DNA from: Caenorhabditis remanei
Lineage: Eukaryota; Nematoda; Chromadorea; Rhabditida; Rhabditidae
Assembly: GCF_010183535.1 (NCBI RefSeq)
Contig: NC_071333.1
Span: 1,550,001-1,614,000, forward strand
Reading direction: 5' to 3'
Length of the DNA: 64,000 nucleotides
Below the pieces are notes generated by a model. It searched no databases. It had not been told where the DNA came from and saw nothing but the letters and a program-made list of their open reading frames with translations. Each line of letters begins with the position of its first letter. Within the stretch, counting starts at the first letter, position 1. The translations under genes were made by a program, and so were the position numbers. Positions 55,976 to 64,000 of the stretch are shown piece by piece.

Positions 55976-57172
55976 TTTGAGGTTTTTCTTAAAACCTCAC
56001 GTAAGTCCACCCCCTCGGTTACCCCCCTTTTTTTGGGTTGAGTTCTTGGTTGACGTAGGATAGGTCTATTAGTTTGGGGTTAAGAGTCAAGGTTAGCTTT
56101 TGTCTCACTCTCCCTTAGTTAAGAAGTTAAGAAGTTAAGAAGTTAAGAAGTTGAGTTAAATTGAGTTAAATTGAGCTAAGTTAAATTAAGTTGAGTTGAA
56201 AATGGTTAAGAGTGAAGCACTAAGAGTTTCCCGTTGGAAAAGTACGGATGTGAGTTTCCCGCGTAGGTTGCGGAGGTAAGGCGCCCAGTATTAGATGCAG
56301 CAGTTAAGTTCAGAATATTAGGTAACCAGGGCCCGGTTCCTTATGTTTCTAGGTTAACTGTAATTAGGGACTAGCTAGCCCTAAGCATCTCAAGATTGAG
56401 AATTAAGAGTTGAAATATAAGAGTTAAGAAAGTAAAGAGAAGTGAGTTAATAATTGAGATAATTGAGTATGAAAAGAGAACAAAAGAGTTAAGTTGATTT
56501 TGAGTTAAGCTAGCAGAATTTGTAGCACAAATAAGTCCGGCAAGTGCAAAGTATTGAGAAAAGTTTAGTCTAAAGTTTGAGAGACAACCATCGAGTCATT
56601 TTTGAGTAAGATATAGAGAGAGTGAGACATAAGCATTAGGATCATTTAGAGAGAGCAGAAGCCCCGTCGTCAGAATTTCATTCTTCTTGTAAAAGCAAAC
56701 ATGCGACGGTCAAGGTCAGAAAGCAGGCAGCTTTCTGACCAGCGCAAAGAAGCAAAGTATGAGTAAGCGCCCTTGCGTCTAGCCACGGGCATAACCACGG
56801 GACACCTTCCCCCCCCCCGTCCCTCTTCTCCTTGCCGTCCTCATTTCTTACAACATTTTTCGCTACTAGCCGACTGTCGCCTTCCACCCGTCTTTTAGCT
56901 TCCCTTCTTTTTAGTTTCGTTTCCTGAGTTTTAGTTCCTCACGGCGCTAGGTTTTTGGGTTCACCGATTTTTCTTTTGGTTCTACATTTCTCTACATTTG
57001 TGGGTTTCCCCCCCCTTCCTCCTTTTTGTTTTTCCGTCCTTAGTAGTGCTGACTATCGCGGAAACAGGCCTGGCCAGAGTGCCAGGTCTGTTCACCCGCT
57101 GTATTCAACGCATTTTTTTTTCTTATGTGGTACACATAACCCGAGGAGGGATATCCAACAAAACCATTTCAG

Positions 57173-57856
57173 ATGAACTCTCTTGTGAACGCCGACGATC
57201 CTCCTCCCACCGAGCAGGTCGCCACTCCAACCTCTCCGGAATTGCCGGAACACATCACCCTGGCAACTGAGACAGCCGTGGAACACATTAGGACTGCAAA
57301 ACTGACTGGGCAGACCCTCATAGAGCTACGCGAATGCGTCTCCACGGATCTCCGAGCCATCCACCTCCGTCTAGGCCGTCTCACCGAACTTTCGGTCGAG
57401 CGGTTCGAGAACCTGGAGGCCCGGGTCGGGCGTCTTGAAGGCCCTCCTTCGAACGAACCAGCGAGTACGCAGACACTCGTCGGTTCAAGTTCGGAGAAGA
57501 CCGCCGAAGACTCGATCGCCCTTTCTACCATCGACAACATCACCTCAGCCCCAGAAAAAGATTCCCAGAAGACCGACGACATGAAGACGCCCACTAGGCC
57601 GCCTCCTTTGATTCTTCAAACCGCTCCACATCGTCCTGACCTCGACGGCACGCCATACCCACCAACAACAACCCGATCTGCACCACCAGCGAACGAACAG
57701 AACGACTCCGAAGCGACGCCCAGGGTTACAAGAGCCGCACCAAAGAAAAGCGAGTCCTATTACTTCAATGTCCTAAATGGAAAGATGGCAGCCCACATCC
57801 CGACGTTTTCCGGCAGAGAAGTATGGGAGCTTGTTAGGACACAAAGTGTAGTTTGA
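57173..57856 (+). pseudogene. Truncated gag, N-terminal part only
   Basis: 227 aa. An N-terminal helical segment (LRAIHLRLGRLTELSVERFE, coiled-coil-like) and a Pro/Ser/Thr-rich linker lead to AHIPTFSGREVWE, the start of the capsid region in BEL/Pao-type Gag proteins. The frame ends 15 residues later at the truncation point. Base composition is much richer in GC than the neighbouring host genes. Confidence 0.6.
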
Positions 57857-57997
57857 TCTTTGATCTCTGGCCATTCTCTAGTCTGGCCAACTACACTGTC
57901 CCACAAGCCTATCCTTAATGAGGTGCCTATCGCTAAGCCTAAGGGGTCCCGGTTAATGAGGTCCCGATTAATGAGGTCCCTATATCCTTAATTAGGT

Positions 57998-58262
57998 ATG
58001 CAATTTCAGATTTTCAGAATTTTCAGATTTTCAGAATTTTCAGATTTTCAGAATTTTCAGATTTTCAGATTTTCAGAATTTCAGATTTTCAGAATTTCAG
58101 ATTTTCAGATTTTCAGATTTTCAGAATTTCAGATATTCAGATTTTCAGAATTTCAGATTTTCAGAATTTCAGCATTTTCAGCAATTTCAGATTTTCAGAA
58201 TTTCAGCAATTTCAGCAATTTCAGAATTTCAGAATTTCAGCAATTTCAGAATTTCAGATTTT
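57998..58262. repeat. (TTTTCAGAA)n satellite
   Basis: About 265 bp of irregular TTTCAGAATTTTCAGA units. The protein called across it is repeat translation. It marks the truncation edge of the LTR element. Confidence 0.85.
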
Positions 58263-58279
58263 TTGGAAATTCATTTAGA

Positions 58280-58358
58280 GCCCCGGGTGGGTGTCGAACC
58301 GGCGGAGGGGAACCGACTGCCGGTTGGACACACAACCGGGTGCGCCAACTGTGTAACC
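58280..58358 (-). pseudogene. tRNA-like sequence
   Basis: The minus strand has GTTGGCGCACCCGGTTG (A-box/D-arm-like), a hairpin AACCG-GCAGT-CGGTT and GGTTCGACACCC (B-box-like) at tRNA spacing, but the arms do not form a clean cloverleaf. It could be a tRNA relic or the head of a tRNA-derived element. Confidence 0.3.
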
Positions 58359-58379
58359 TAGACTGAGGGGTAAGATGAT

Positions 58380-58800
58380 ATTTATATACCGAGCGCGCGC
58401 CCCCCTCGCGGGGCGCCTTGTCCCCTCGAGGGGCGCCCGGTGTGTGGAGAGAGGGGAATGTCTCTGCGTCTCTCATACCAGGCGCATCTCTCTCGTCGGC
58501 GCCCCCTCGAGGGGCGCCCGGTGTGGGGAGAGATGAGAATGTCTCTGCGTCTCTCATACCAGATGGAGGCCTGTGCCCGCTCCCTCGAAGTTTCTCGAAG
58601 TTTTCTTTGTGTCTCTCATGGGAAGATCGTCTCTCGGCTTGGCTCCCCCTTTCTCGGCGTCTCTCAGAAGATATCATTGCGCCCCGACTCTCTCTCGTTT
58701 CTGAGGGAATATGCGTCTCTCCGAAAATATCATTGCGCCGCGCTCTCTCGTTTCTGAGGGAATACGTGTCTCTCGCCTTCAAGGAAACGTGGCTTAAACC
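58380..58800. repeat. GC-rich tandem duplications at the Maverick edge
   Basis: CCCCTCGAGGGGCGCCCGGT at about 58422 recurs at about 58503, each followed by a TGTCTCTGCGTCTCTCATAC word. A second pair, ATATCATTGCGCC...GTTTCTGAGGGAATA, recurs at about 58670 and 58727. CTCGAGGGGCGCC contains its own short palindrome. It may be part of the terminal region of the adjoining Maverick. Confidence 0.6.
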
Positions 58801-58882
58801 CCCCACATCTGAAATTAAGGAGAAAACATTTTTCAACATAACCAAATTTATTCATGGGACCATTGAAAAATTATGCGAAAAT

Positions 58883-60083
58883 TTAAAAATCTTCTGGTTC
58901 CTGTTTTGGTTCGGCATCCATTGATGGGGCCATTGGAGGAGTCGGCATAGTGTTCTGGGGAGCTTGGAATATTGCTGGTGGTGGAACGATTGGAGCTTGG
59001 AACATGGGCGGCGGTGGTGGGATGAAGAAGGTCCAAACCAATGGCAACGGTGGCGGCGGGAACATCCCAGTTGGAGGTGGGAACATCCCAGTTGGAGCCA
59101 TCGTTGGTGGTGGCGGGGGCAAGGTCTGAAAATTCACAGGTAAGTTAACAGAAAATGTCTACCCCTATAAATGGCTCCCAATGTCTAACCCTATAAATTA
59201 CCTGGAATCGGTCCATTGGAGCCGCCGGCACTTGTGGTGGTGGGTGTGGGGGTTGTCCAATTTGAGTGGTGGTTGGCGGCGGTGTTGGTGGAAGCGGGAT
59301 GGTCTGAAAATTCAAGTTTTCATTTCGAATTTCACCCCATAAATGATCCCCCAATGTCTAAATTCCCCTATAAGTTACCTGGAAACTGCCGTTTGGAAAT
59401 ATTTCGTTGAATCTGTCGAGTAATGAGCGTGACTGAAAAAATAATCTATATACAAGAAATTTGAAAATTTTCAATTTTACCTGGGTAGACTCTTTTTTAT
59501 TCCGATTGGCGTGATGCCAAATCGGGCAGGCGTCTTGAGTCCGGTGAAACGCGTTCTTGCTGCGTTTCATGTTGCCCCACCCGAGACATCCGGGGGTGGG
59601 GCAAATTGACACCGATACGGCCTTTCCTCTCAAGTCATCTGAAGACACATAATGAATATTTTCAAAAACTTTGAAAAGGCTTACCCAGCTCTATTGGGCT
59701 CTTCCAAGACATACGCAAAATTGGAATAATGGGAAGGGGGGAAGTTGGGGACGAATTCATTTTGCAGGTTCGCAAAGTGGTGAATGAATGATTGGAAGTC
59801 GTTTTCGCGGACTGTTTGTGTAACGTGTGTCCTCCCTCTGTGCCAGCTCATGATTGAAAGCGATGACTGTTCACCCAGAAGCAACATGATGCTTACCGAG
59901 TGCGTCTTTGTAAATTTTGATTGTACCCACAAGAGTCATATTCTGGAACTTGTCATCCAAAAGAGGGATCATTTGCGGATATGGCTTAAATCCCGTGGTG
60001 CGCTGATCCTGTGGTGGGAAAGGCATTACAGGAGATGGTGGTGGAGATTGTGGATCTGTTGGGAGTGGAGTTTCGTCAAACAT
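58883..60083 (-). CDS. Proline-rich protein with a MYT1-type C2HC zinc finger (Maverick cargo)
   Basis: Minus-strand exons 60083-59897, 59837-59685, 59638-59481, 59432-59379, 59303-59202 and 59125-58883 join with canonical sites and matching phases to 298 aa. The N-terminus is proline-rich (MFDETPLPTDPQSPPPSP). Exon 3 holds CPTPGCLGWG...H-x5-C, the C-x4-C-x13-H-x5-C pattern of MYT1/L3MBTL/MYST-type C2HC fingers, which occur in chromatin and transcription proteins. The last two exons are Pro/Thr-rich. The region 59681-59932 is also fully open in a second frame (segment ENDFQSFIHHFANLQNEF), which looks equally protein-like, so the splice model or reading frame there is uncertain. Not a core Maverick gene that I know. 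Confidence 0.6.
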
Positions 60084-60101
60084 GGTGAATGAATGAATGT
60101 T

Positions 60102-60593
60102 TCAGGCGGCAAACGGTTTATATACCCTACACTCGCACCGTTTCAGATGATTTTTGACCCATTTCTCGACTAGTCTATCATTATTCGCCAAATTTCTGGA
60201 AAAGGGGGCTCTGATCTTCTTGTTGGACTGTTTCATCGCTTTCCTGATCAAGAAGTATATGCAGTAGAATCCACACACGTCCGAGAGGAGTCCTTGTACG
60301 GGGGAGTCAAAGACTTTTTTCCACTTGACACAGTTTTTGGTGAAAAATTCCCGAAACTCTGATTGTGGGTCTGCACCACTGCTATCCATAAAATAACCAA
60401 AGTTTCGGTCGTCAACCCAGAGAGCTACCCAATGTTCTCCAGAATCATCACTTGGTGCTGTATTCCAGATAAATGAGCATGGTCGGCGGAAAATTGTTGG
60501 GTGTTGATCACATGGAAAGACTCCAGAAAAGTGTGGTCGTGTAATTTTGCATGTGCTAAGAAACAAATCCAACTGACTGGTGGATAGAGCCAT
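60102..60593 (-). CDS. Adenain-type cysteine protease (Maverick PRO)
   Basis: A 163-aa single exon. The catalytic pattern of adenovirus proteases is present: His54 in GEHWVALWVD, an acidic residue at about 70 (YFMDSSG), Gln100 in SPVQGLLSDVCGFYC and nucleophile Cys107. Such proteases cleave capsid and core precursors during virion maturation. It is somewhat shorter than adenain (about 204 aa). It starts 7 bases after the stop of the PAZ-like gene and ends 18 bases before the start of the zinc-finger gene. A TATA-like TTTATATACC lies at 60118, at the 3' end. Confidence 0.9.
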   Translation of the reverse strand: MALSTSQLDLFLSTCKITRPHFSGVFPCDQHPTIFRRPCSFIWNTAPSDDSGEHWVALWVDDRNFGYFMDSSGADPQSEFREFFTKNCVKWKKVFDSPVQGLLSDVCGFYCIYFLIRKAMKQSNKKIRAPFSRNLANNDRLVEKWVKNHLKRCECRVYKPFAA

Positions 60594-60600
60594 AGTTTAT

Positions 60601-61124
60601 TCAGAAAACACGGTAACGGAACCAAACAGTTTCAATGGGGAACATGGAACCCGATGGGTCACGCAAAAGGGGGGAATTTGGGTAATTTAGGCGAATCTTG
60701 TATTTTTCCTCAAAGTAGTGCTTAATTGAGACTTGGCGACGACGTGGTTGAGGTTTTGAAGCCGACTTGTTGACAAAGTGGTGGGAATGTGGTGTTGCGT
60801 CTCTGAAAATTGATAATGATGCTGGAATGTGTGGAACCGAAAACTTACAGGCTCAATTCTGATCCAGGGGGAATTATGAAGCCATTGCATGAATTCCAAA
60901 CTTTGGTTGGTCCCAATTCATGCATTTTGCGATTCATCTCCCGAATTTGTTGTGCAGAAATTCTCTCGACACGACCCATCATCATCATATAGGTTGCCAA
61001 GTTGATGTCGACAAACTGAAAATTGAAAGATAAATTTTGAAGACGTGTGTGGTTGGCTTACCCCTGGTTCTGGCGGTGTGTAGTCAGGTGGGAGAGTGAT
61101 TGGGCGAGCCGTTCCTGGTAGCAT
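60601..61124 (-). CDS. 143-aa spliced protein with a C-terminal PAZ-like (Argonaute) segment
   Basis: Minus-strand exons 61124-61062, 61015-60849 and 60802-60601 join in frame through GTAAG donors and TTTTCAG acceptors. The N-terminus is proline-rich (PITLPPDYTPPEPG), followed by a helical stretch (ERISAQQIREMNRKMHEL). Residues about 101-123 read VSIKHYFEEKYKIRLNYPN followed by SPLL, then MFPIE. This is how the second half of Argonaute PAZ domains reads (V-x-x-YF-x-x-KY-x-I-x-L-x-YP-x-x-P-L...-P-x-E). PAZ domains hold small-RNA 3' ends. The first half of PAZ and the PIWI domain are absent and the protein ends shortly after. PAZ identity is my recognition, not a search result. It lies between the capsid and protease genes of a Maverick. 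Confidence 0.6.
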
Positions 61125-61162
61125 GACTGGTGCTTGTGCACAAGTGCGCGACCACTTTTATA

Positions 61163-62440
61163 CTAGTGCCTATGAGTCATCACCACATTGCGGAAGCCAT
61201 CAACCGTGATCATCCCGTCAAATTGTGACAAAACAAGCGCGTTCAGGCCTCCCGTCGGTGTCTTCTCATTGAATTTGATGAAAAGTTGAGTGCTTCCGCT
61301 CTGTAGCAGTTCCCATGAATTTGAAGCATCAATCGCTGCAAGGTTGAAGACGTAGAATGCAAAGCCGCTTCGGAACATTTTGTAAGTGATTCGTGGACAT
61401 GATTTGCTGGTCACACACCCAAGCTCTTCGTATAGTCTGGTGAATGCCTGAGCATAATTTTTGTTGTTAAAGTCGCACTGAATTGGCTGTGGAGGATAGA
61501 CTGTTCCGGCAACGTCCAATTGAATTTGGGCCAGGTTGTGGTGGGCAAAATTGAAACAATTCTTTGAAAATTTTCCTTCCATTGCTTCAGGGGAAATCAG
61601 ACCAACAATAACTCGGCGTGGCAAAATATCTTGGTAGAGCATGTTGAATGGGAGCTCCATTCGTCCTTCAGGAATCGAAATCACCTTTACCTTCGTGACA
61701 GTGAATGGATACCGAGCCGGTGTGGTTCTGAGACGATTTTCCAGGGCAATCGATGCTGACGCGACAACCTCAATAGCTCTCATATGTAGTTTCAGGTCAG
61801 TGATGTACATTCTGGCTGGTCCATCTTCCTCAACGCATTCCAGACAGAAGGCATCCGTGTTTCGGTACAAAGTCAATTGAATGTTAATGTGTGGAACCAA
61901 GAGACGATCGGTTTGGAATGGTTCCAAAAAGAGTGGTGTGCAAATGTCAAGACCGTCATCGCCCGAAACTGTCCTTTTGGCCGGGTTCACAGTACTCAAA
62001 TCTTCCTCATCGTTGATCCAGCGTGCAGCTCCAAGAAAGCCTTCCTTGGTTTCATCGTTTTCGCCTAAAAGTGTTTGAATGTACGCTTTGTAGGCGTAGT
62101 GTGACGAGTCGTAGACGGGGACGTTGTTATACGAGAGCTTGACTTGGTTGAAGAATGTGGCCCCAATGAAATTGGAATGAGAGACGACTACCGGTTTCCC
62201 GTCAGCCTTCTTCTTGAGACCAGCCAAATGAACTTTGAATGAAAGGTAGGTTTTGTTGAGTTGGAAGAAGTGGGCACTATCAAAAATGTTGAATGTGTAG
62301 GGACCTTTAGCGTCAATTGGGTTTGATGTGGGGAATGTCATCCATTTTCCCTTGTTGAATGCAACTTGACTGGGTGGTGTGTCGAAAAGGCAAATGTTCG
62401 CTGTAGCACACGGAGTGCTCTTGTTCATCAATTTTGCCAT
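61163..62440 (-). CDS. Major capsid protein of the Maverick, double-jelly-roll type
   Basis: 425 aa. Hallmarks of Polinton/adintovirus hexon-like proteins: an N-terminal beta-rich half with FFNQVKLSYNNVPVYDSSHY and AYKAYIQTLLG, then IPEGRMELPFNMLYQDILPR, RVIVGLISPEAMEGKF, NCFNFAHHNL and a terminal strand-rich domain. By family it forms the trimeric capsomers of an icosahedral particle. The start overlaps the stop of the basic core protein by 13 bases, the kind of compaction seen in viruses. No frameshift or stop seen. Confidence 0.85.
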   Translation of the reverse strand: MAKLMNKSTPCATANICLFDTPPSQVAFNKGKWMTFPTSNPIDAKGPYTFNIFDSAHFFQLNKTYLSFKVHLAGLKKKADGKPVVVSHSNFIGATFFNQVKLSYNNVPVYDSSHYAYKAYIQTLLGENDETKEGFLGAARWINDEEDLSTVNPAKRTVSGDDGLDICTPLFLEPFQTDRLLVPHINIQLTLYRNTDAFCLECVEEDGPARMYITDLKLHMRAIEVVASASIALENRLRTTPARYPFTVTKVKVISIPEGRMELPFNMLYQDILPRRVIVGLISPEAMEGKFSKNCFNFAHHNLAQIQLDVAGTVYPPQPIQCDFNNKNYAQAFTRLYEELGCVTSKSCPRITYKMFRSGFAFYVFNLAAIDASNSWELLQSGSTQLFIKFNEKTPTGGLNALVLSQFDGMITVDGFRNVVMTHRH

Positions 62441-62943
62441 TTTCCAAAAATGTCACGTTTGCGGGATGAAGACTTGGCAATGGTACGTTTCTTGCGAGTG
62501 ATCTTCCGTTTTCCAGATTTTTTGAGCTTCTTGGTGGTTCGTCGTCGTCGTCGTTGTCGTTGTTTCACAACCTTCTTACGTTTGACTGTTCGTCGTTTAC
62601 GGCGTCCACCTTTTTGACCAAGTTTGTCGATTGCTCGATTGACAAGTGAATTGTAGGAATTTGAAGCGTTCTTTGACAGCGACTGTTTGAACGAGTCACC
62701 AGCCGCCACGTCGTTTGCAACGCGAAGTGAGGAATCCATGACTTCGCGGCCAACTGAGACTCCCATCCGCTTTAGAAGAGGTACGGCAGAAATGAAGAGC
62801 TTTCCGAGTAATTGTGAAAACGGGCCATTTCCCCGCTGATAGATACTTCCGGCACGAAATCCACCAAAACCTGCTTGATTTGGGTCACACTCAAAGAAGG
62901 CAACCCAATCAACAGAGCGATCAGGATCAAAATCAACGTACAT
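62428..62943 (-). CDS. Basic core-like virion protein (Maverick)
   Basis: 171 aa. The first half has GFGGFRAGSIYQRGNGPFSQ and LLGKLFISAVPLLKRMG, wording shared by a conserved Polinton/adintovirus protein placed beside the capsid genes. The last 65 residues are almost all Arg and Lys in runs such as KKVVKQRQRRRRRTTKKLKK, which would bind and condense DNA. Compared with adenovirus core and pVI-like proteins the role is inference. Confidence 0.7.
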   Translation of the reverse strand: MYVDFDPDRSVDWVAFFECDPNQAGFGGFRAGSIYQRGNGPFSQLLGKLFISAVPLLKRMGVSVGREVMDSSLRVANDVAAGDSFKQSLSKNASNSYNSLVNRAIDKLGQKGGRRKRRTVKRKKVVKQRQRRRRRTTKKLKKSGKRKITRKKRTIAKSSSRKRDIFGKWQN

Positions 62944-62976
62944 CGTAGGAGAGCGCTTTTGTAACCGATTGAGTGA

Positions 62977-63750
62977 TCAGCCATCAAATGAAATTTTGAC
63001 TGGTCGGAAGTGTAGCACTATGACCACTTTTCCAGAATTGAAAGGAATGAAATGGTCCCGGTCGTTCTTGATCTGGATTCCTATACGTGAGACGTCAGTT
63101 GGTCGAACTCTAACATATAACGGTTTTGTGAAGGTTTGCTCAACATTGGCTCCATTTCCAGTGTTCATGCTGATAACCTTTAAAATTGGGACTTTCATGT
63201 GACTGATGGTTTGGGGCTCCACGAGGTCTTCAGAATACACATACATCAAATCGGAACCCGAAAATGTAGAATATTTTCCCAATGTTGGAAAAGTCTTGAT
63301 TTCACGATCGTGGCCTAGAAAATATGCCAGTCTTGCCGAAAGTTGAACTTGTGACACGCTTTCCTGTGTCTTGATCAGGATCCGTTTGTAGAGTGGGTTA
63401 TACTCAAAAATTCCGATCGTTGTGTTGGTGGTGTTCAAAATTTTATCCAATTTTGAGGATAGTGTATGATTCAGAATTTCGGTCAGCTCTTGGGGTGTTG
63501 AGAATGTGCAACTTTGAATTTTGCACTTGATTGGTGAATTTGTGAACCACACGACAAACTCGTTTTCATTCCATCCATTGTCTTCTGGTAGATTGGAAAT
63601 CAAGTCGTGCGAGGATGGGTAGATGATGGAAGACAAGCCAACTTCAAATTCACGTTCAAAGTGTATCGGGCTTGGAAGTTGTGTATTGAAATTGGAAATT
63701 GATGAAGTTGCCTGGGCATTACTGACTAGGGTGATGTAAAAGTCACTCAT
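62977..63750 (-). CDS. Minor capsid / penton-like protein (Maverick)
   Basis: 257 aa if the start is MSDFYITLVSNAQ (63750); an upstream in-frame ATG at 63798 is less likely because MSDFY matches the family N-terminus. INFYNTQL-type strands are followed by FEVGLSSIIYPSSHD, the segment that in Polinton penton-like proteins reads evaLaeI.YP.sw. A single jelly roll is expected; such proteins close the capsid vertices. The ATG overlaps the stop of the membrane protein gene (ATGAGTGA). Confidence 0.75.
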   Translation of the reverse strand: MSDFYITLVSNAQATSSISNFNTQLPSPIHFEREFEVGLSSIIYPSSHDLISNLPEDNGWNENEFVVWFTNSPIKCKIQSCTFSTPQELTEILNHTLSSKLDKILNTTNTTIGIFEYNPLYKRILIKTQESVSQVQLSARLAYFLGHDREIKTFPTLGKYSTFSGSDLMYVYSEDLVEPQTISHMKVPILKVISMNTGNGANVEQTFTKPLYVRVRPTDVSRIGIQIKNDRDHFIPFNSGKVVIVLHFRPVKISFDG

Positions 63751-63952
63751 GATCTTTGAGTTTTGGGTTAGGCAAGAGGTAACCAATGCAGGAGCCAAGT
63801 ACGGTCATCCACTGATGTTGTTGAGTTGGATCAGAACAAATTTTATATAGAGCAACAAGACTGACAATGTAGACAATGAAAACTTGGGAGCAATAGACAA
63901 TGAGGGCCCTAGAGCAATCTGTGTTTCCACAAGACCACTTTGAGTTATCCAT
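63743..63952 (-). CDS. Small single-span membrane protein (Maverick)
   Basis: 69 aa. A Cys-containing N-terminus (SKWSCGNTDCSRA) is followed by a hydrophobic span (LIVYCSQVFIVYIVSLVALY) and a second weakly hydrophobic part ending LGSCIGYLLPNPKLK. Small membrane proteins with a terminal PNPK motif occur beside penton genes in related elements, from memory. Virion or cell-membrane role unknown. Confidence 0.55.
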   Translation of the reverse strand: MDNSKWSCGNTDCSRALIVYCSQVFIVYIVSLVALYKICSDPTQQHQWMTVLGSCIGYLLPNPKLKDHE

Positions 63953-64000
63953 GATAGTCTTTGAAATCCGATTCTGGGATCCATGAGTTGAATGAGTCGT

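Follow-up and report, generated by a model that had tools for sequence, protein, structure and literature searches.

PAZ domains are, to our knowledge, known only within Argonaute and Dicer proteins. Residue numbers for human PAZ are given here as in a published model of its RNA-gripping pocket, and we take them to be those of hAgo1. In the part of that study available, H269, Y277, F292, Y309, K313, Y314 and Y336 grip the last RNA nucleotides, and Y309, K313 and Y314 contact the last RNA phosphates (PMC5896489). The other point of reference is the nematode Maverick (Polinton), an element that also carries accessory genes, namely wosp proteases, krma kinases and a putative fusogen, as reported in the accessible part of PMC10680173. 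Here, we consider a gene from a 64,000-nucleotide stretch of the Caenorhabditis remanei genome (RefSeq assembly GCF_010183535.1, contig NC_071333.1, positions 1,550,001 to 1,614,000; hereafter the window) that lies between the capsid-like and protease genes of such an element, and whose 143-residue product is predicted to be a complete PAZ-fold domain of the Argonaute type that stands on its own.

The host element resembles the described nematode Polintons in its rve integrase with a chromodomain, P-loop ATPase, C5 protease and capsid-like gene. The PAZ gene between capsid and protease goes unmentioned in those portions of the Polinton literature that were examined. Like the wosp, krma and fusogen genes, some of which come from the same genus in the portion of PMC10680173 covered, it is borne by nematode Mavericks, but it is not sporadic cargo, being instead a near-constant neighbor of the capsid gene in its group. 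The words 'PAZ' and 'Argonaute' occur zero times in PMC11071308, as does 'argonaute' in PMC3671162; two papers, PMC6361761 and PMC6128900, contain both 'polinton' and 'PAZ domain', which stand unconnected in the passages of the former. Among the listings and passages covered, no literature link of PAZ or Argonaute to Polinton proteins was found, and an earlier notice in work on nematode Polintons or on Maverick gene transfer is possible.

A predicted free-standing PAZ domain

Homology to PAZ emerged from sequence comparisons of three kinds. A Pfam scan matches PAZ (PF02170) at residues 98-124 (E-value 4.9e-5, 23.7 bits) and no PIWI domain in the 143-residue protein. That score lies below the gathering score of 28.8 bits, which is a curation threshold for PAZ and not a biological feature. 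Across its close relatives (the window group), PF02170 scores run from 16.4 to 27.1 bits, and one relative (P0009) is assigned PF02170 in the database's precomputed table; P0015 had no PAZ match in the Pfam scan. Against PDB sequences, the window protein alone had two matches, both Argonautes (best E-value 0.63), while a nine-sequence profile, comprising the window protein and eight relatives, recovered 14 sequences at E<=10, the top 11 of which are Argonautes (best E-value 0.012) and the remaining three unrelated. Profile-profile comparison (hhalign) of 15 Maverick sequences with 20 Argonaute PAZ exons from the same genome gave a probability of 96.9 and a score of 68.6. The latter profile holds 20 of the 25 host PAZ stretches extracted from 30 loci, a genome scan having given 71 PAZ matches; L015, L016, L025, L028 and L030, at least three of them wrong-strand, were excluded, and the short pieces P0012, P0013 and P0014 were likewise kept out of later comparisons. 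Control scores did not exceed 24.6 in 200 column shuffles and stood at 15.0 with a reversed profile. Chance similarity is therefore rejected, the best shuffle falling far below the real score.

The sequence signal is located in residues 97-143: residues 1-97, 22-97 and 69-97 alone gave no PAZ match in profile comparison, and exon 2 on its own has no similarity to Argonautes detectable by sequence. A structure predicted without templates has a complete PAZ fold from about residue 16 to the end; its structure matches share 11-19% identity in the 50 shown. Because residues 1-97 match nothing by sequence, the assignment of the first half to PAZ rests on this predicted fold and on the relatives. 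A BFVD structure search returned 102 matches, none of which reached E<=0.001, and so supplied no viral protein with this fold, and no viral precedent, at that threshold. That the resemblance is a chance or convergent one, in a short helix-strand motif, would accord with a Pfam score under the curated cut-off and with the silence of residues 1-97, but the margin over the shuffles and the template-free prediction of a complete PAZ fold in two lineages (see below) make it scarcely credible.

The preliminary description of this locus had read the second half of an Argonaute PAZ domain, truncated and lacking PIWI, at the end of the protein. The PAZ homology and the absence of PIWI are upheld by these searches, and the sequence match does lie in the second half. 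Its confinement to that half and the truncation do not survive, since nearly the whole protein adopts the PAZ fold in prediction, which rules out a half-PAZ.

Residues of the RNA 3'-end pocket

When aligned to the PAZ chain of human AGO1, the window protein has Y106, K110 and Y111 at the places of Y309, K313 and Y314, and these three residues are invariant in all 21 distinct members of the window group. F86, likewise invariant in 21/21, is probably the equivalent of F292, judging by its position in the modeled fold. The proteins of the group are basic (isoelectric point, pI, of 8.9-9.9 in 7/7 tested), which fits the expectation for a nucleic-acid binder. Two further motifs are conserved: W61-N62-x-C64, invariant in all 20 sequences covering it, has no evident Argonaute counterpart, and the N-terminal MLPG (window 61113-61124) is invariant in all relatives covering it, though it lies outside the PAZ fold. 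Compared with the PAZ of Argonautes (PF02170; human AGO1/AGO2 and HIWI1 structures), the window protein differs in standing free, in having no PIWI match and in lacking evident equivalents of H269 and Y277.

A regular component of the capsid-protease block

The genome searched (130.5 Mb in 186 contigs) yielded 20 DNA-level matches to the PAZ gene and 116 exon-level protein matches. The latter were merged by hand into 45 PAZ places, which were set against those capsid and protease matches that belong to the closer class. The count leaves aside distant capsids and proteases, additional pieces of a gene already counted, and nine weak matches to small PAZ-like genes. A PAZ gene lies within 1.5 kb of 41 of the 51 capsid places; the ten others comprise eight short pieces (<=242 amino acids), a pseudogene with six stops and a split gene, the other piece of which does adjoin a PAZ gene. 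Similarly, 41/43 protease places have a PAZ gene within 0.6 kb, and one of the remaining two has it at 0.9 kb. Both partners stand beside 38 of the 45 PAZ places. Within one Caenorhabditis Maverick group, the capsid-protease block regularly includes the PAZ gene.

The gene is also under purifying selection. Among 12 representatives, finite dS values were obtained for 34 of the 66 pairs, and in these the ratio of nonsynonymous to synonymous substitution rates (dN/dS) ranges from 0.12 to 0.44; the other 32 pairs, with saturated dS, were not counted. For close pairs, the ratio is based on 6 to 12 differences per pair. Both introns occur at equivalent places in 20 full-length copies modeled by script, despite identity down to 40% among the 12 representatives (29 copies were entered, eight gave no model, and L057, with a broken 114-residue frame, was dropped later). 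Similarity to host Argonaute PAZ exons peaks at 29.9 bits (L024). This would be the ground for seeing in the gene a captured host exon carried as functionless cargo, a reading that is very improbable and mainly refuted by the purifying selection, the conserved introns, the near-constant presence and the distance that separates it from all host Argonaute exons in the comparison. Recent capture of a host exon is ruled out by the selection, the linkage and that same distance.

Relatives of the protein are on public record for C. remanei, C. brenneri, C. nigoni and C. tropicalis, that of C. tropicalis being a 79-residue piece; in one C. nigoni record (P0004), the end of the capsid is fused to the PAZ gene in a single entry. 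Relatives of the gene do occur in other Caenorhabditis Mavericks, where the preliminary description had proposed to look for it. That description also stated that no PAZ is known to be encoded by Mavericks. The literature agrees in the part seen, yet several of these public entries have already been labelled automatically as 'PAZ domain-containing protein'.

A second Maverick lineage and dispersed PAZ-like genes

A relative of the PAZ gene is present in a second Maverick lineage, where it too is near a capsid gene. Its product is also predicted, without templates, to have a complete PAZ fold, the alignment behind that model containing sequences of the first group. Capsids 26-30% identical to that of the window occur at about 24 places, four of them with a PAZ-like match close by; of the remaining 20 or so, five were searched with four profiles over the 1.8 kb downstream of the capsid, and none of these five gave a match. 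Within that range, a PAZ gene in every other Maverick is thus rejected. At the position of the PAZ gene downstream of the capsid, some distant Mavericks (L083, L084, L086 and L087) have a different small frame with a CxxC-like motif, as seen by eye.

Separately, a dispersed family of compact PAZ-like genes in this genome (L076, L077, L078, L079, L080, L081 and L082) encodes proteins of about 110-125 amino acids, mostly in two exons; some adjoin distant Maverick capsids, and others have no capsid match nearby. They are possibly relics or domesticated copies. One locus (L078, C148:265719-266789) holds two such genes in tandem that converge on a distant capsid gene; a charged C-terminal extension is present in the second of the pair. 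The model of L076 as read probably contains an in-frame intron, and that of L079 is wrongly spliced to a four-residue stub, which stayed in the alignment subsequently used.

Functional considerations

The conserved pocket residues suggest that the protein would bind small RNAs, or other single strands, by their 3' ends. Lacking PIWI, it would hold the bound small RNAs unproductively, and such a decoy would weaken small-RNA silencing of its own Maverick. Because a PAZ that lacks PIWI could retain a small RNA without being able to use it, an anti-silencing decoy is suggested, a putative role to which we give a little less than an even chance. The fuller proposal, namely a PAZ-only anti-silencing decoy derived from an Argonaute domain, housed in the virion gene block, predating the divergence of two or more Maverick lineages and gripping host small RNAs at their 3' ends, we put at a probability of roughly 0.4. 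If it is right, the protein would join the VANC proteins of Arabidopsis VANDAL transposons as a transposon-encoded anti-silencing factor; VANCs are sequence-specific, according to the parts of the sources available, and no sequence relation between them and the PAZ protein is claimed. The proposed outcome, a block of small-RNA silencing, would also resemble that of the viral suppressors of RNA interference, among which no suppressor built on PAZ is named in the titles and abstract openings of the 10 records listed out of 71.

Several observations weigh against the decoy proposal. H269 and Y277 have no evident counterparts, the former falling near C64 and the latter on a non-aromatic residue in an uncertain by-eye mapping. 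The second lineage departs further: the equivalents of Y309 and K313 are I/V/A and D, only Y314 being retained; its proteins are not basic (pI 5.9-7.7 in 3/3 tested); and its sequence similarity to PAZ is weak, with an hhalign probability of 79.8 against Argonaute PAZ, a Pfam match of E-value 0.15 and 12.5 bits in P0018, and none in P0020 and P0022. This drift of the pocket counts against an ancestral, shared task in RNA binding, which may not be the function common to both lineages. Finally, the location among virion genes suits a role in the virion equally well.

That last point leads to an alternative in which the PAZ fold serves as a virion or replication accessory, binding either the capsid or, as in protein-primed replication, 3' ends of the Maverick's single-stranded DNA, with silencing uninvolved. 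It would account for the fixed place between capsid and protease (gaps of 38 nt to the upstream capsid gene and 7 nt to the downstream protease in the window), for the PAZ-like gene near a capsid in the second lineage as well, and for the drift of the RNA-pocket residues there. Further, in the part of PMC6361761 available, PAZ is described as binding oligonucleotides, and the PAZ of AGO2 was observed with bound DNA. However, the three invariant pocket residues of the window group count against it, and no similarity of the PAZ gene to a viral structural protein was found in Pfam, BFVD and further searches; we consider it rather unlikely. Still more doubtful is a protein decoy that would mimic the surface of the Argonaute PAZ and titrate Argonaute partners or loading factors without binding nucleic acid. 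The partly lost pocket (H269 and Y277), its drift in the second lineage and the invariant W61-N62-x-C64 are consistent with such a decoy, under which, however, the invariance of the Y309/K313/Y314 equivalents would be unneeded.

Gene structure and genomic context

Joining the three minus-strand exons (Table 1) gives 432 nt, that is, 143 open codons and a stop, and the splice sites of both introns are good by sequence. A public C. remanei protein of equal length (GCK72_016119; P0001) is 97% identical to the window protein and letter-for-letter the same as the three-exon model of the PAZ copy L044 on contig C4, a model not wholly independent of P0001, which was among the reference sequences of the gene-model script. 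The intact, spliced 143-residue gene reported in the preliminary description is confirmed by this frame, the splice sites, P0001 and the introns conserved across the 20 modeled copies, and its placement between capsid and protease genes by the matches of the neighbors.

Table 1. Coordinates in the window of the PAZ gene, its neighbors and the host element.
Feature	Position	Strand	Details
PAZ gene exon 1	61062..61124	-	63 nt, residues 1-21, N-terminal MLPG
Intron 1	61016..61061	-	46 nt, GTAAGC..TTTTCAG
PAZ gene exon 2	60849..61015	-	167 nt; first half of predicted PAZ fold
Intron 2	60803..60848	-	46 nt, GTAAGT..TTTTCAG
PAZ gene exon 3 incl. stop codon	60601..60802	-	202 nt
Clear sequence homology to Argonaute PAZ	60616..60741	-	residues 98-139, contains Y106, K110, Y111
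Capsid-like gene, upstream neighbor	61163..62437	-	424 amino acids; Pfam DJR-like PF21738 at E 0.11, below cut-off
C5-type (adenain-like) cysteine protease gene, downstream neighbor	60102..60593	-	163 amino acids; PF00770 E 2e-4, 21.6 bits (cut-off 21.3)
Basic protein frame of Maverick	62446..62976	-	without Pfam match
Maverick part inside window	57814..64000	.	left edge from copy alignment; element continues past window

The gene content identifies the host element, by sequence, as a Maverick. Just past the window (L088), it has an rve integrase match (PF00665, E-value 7.5e-8, over the cut-off), a chromodomain (E-value 5.9e-7) and P-loop NTPase (ATPase) matches; of the 31 families matched, the 25 listed include no FtsK/HerA model. 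A search of PDB sequences with the capsid-like protein gave nothing at E<=1. At the left edge near 57814, six of the nine other copies matched over 2 kb start, and three start about 35 nt later. This edge falls within an open frame of a repeat (57140-57856), one match of which elsewhere (C6:21204662-21205347, 89% identity) stops at the Maverick edge; because of this, the Maverick apparently integrated within a different repeat. A TATAAA at 61157-61162 directly follows the capsid stop codon, 38 nt ahead of the PAZ start. A TATA box as a general feature is ruled out, since 4 of the 13 copies examined have the motif at -38 and those four belong to the subfamily of the window copy.

Implications

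A free-standing PAZ domain fixed in the capsid block would provide a direct handle both on how Mavericks coexist with nematode small-RNA defence and on the contents of their particles.
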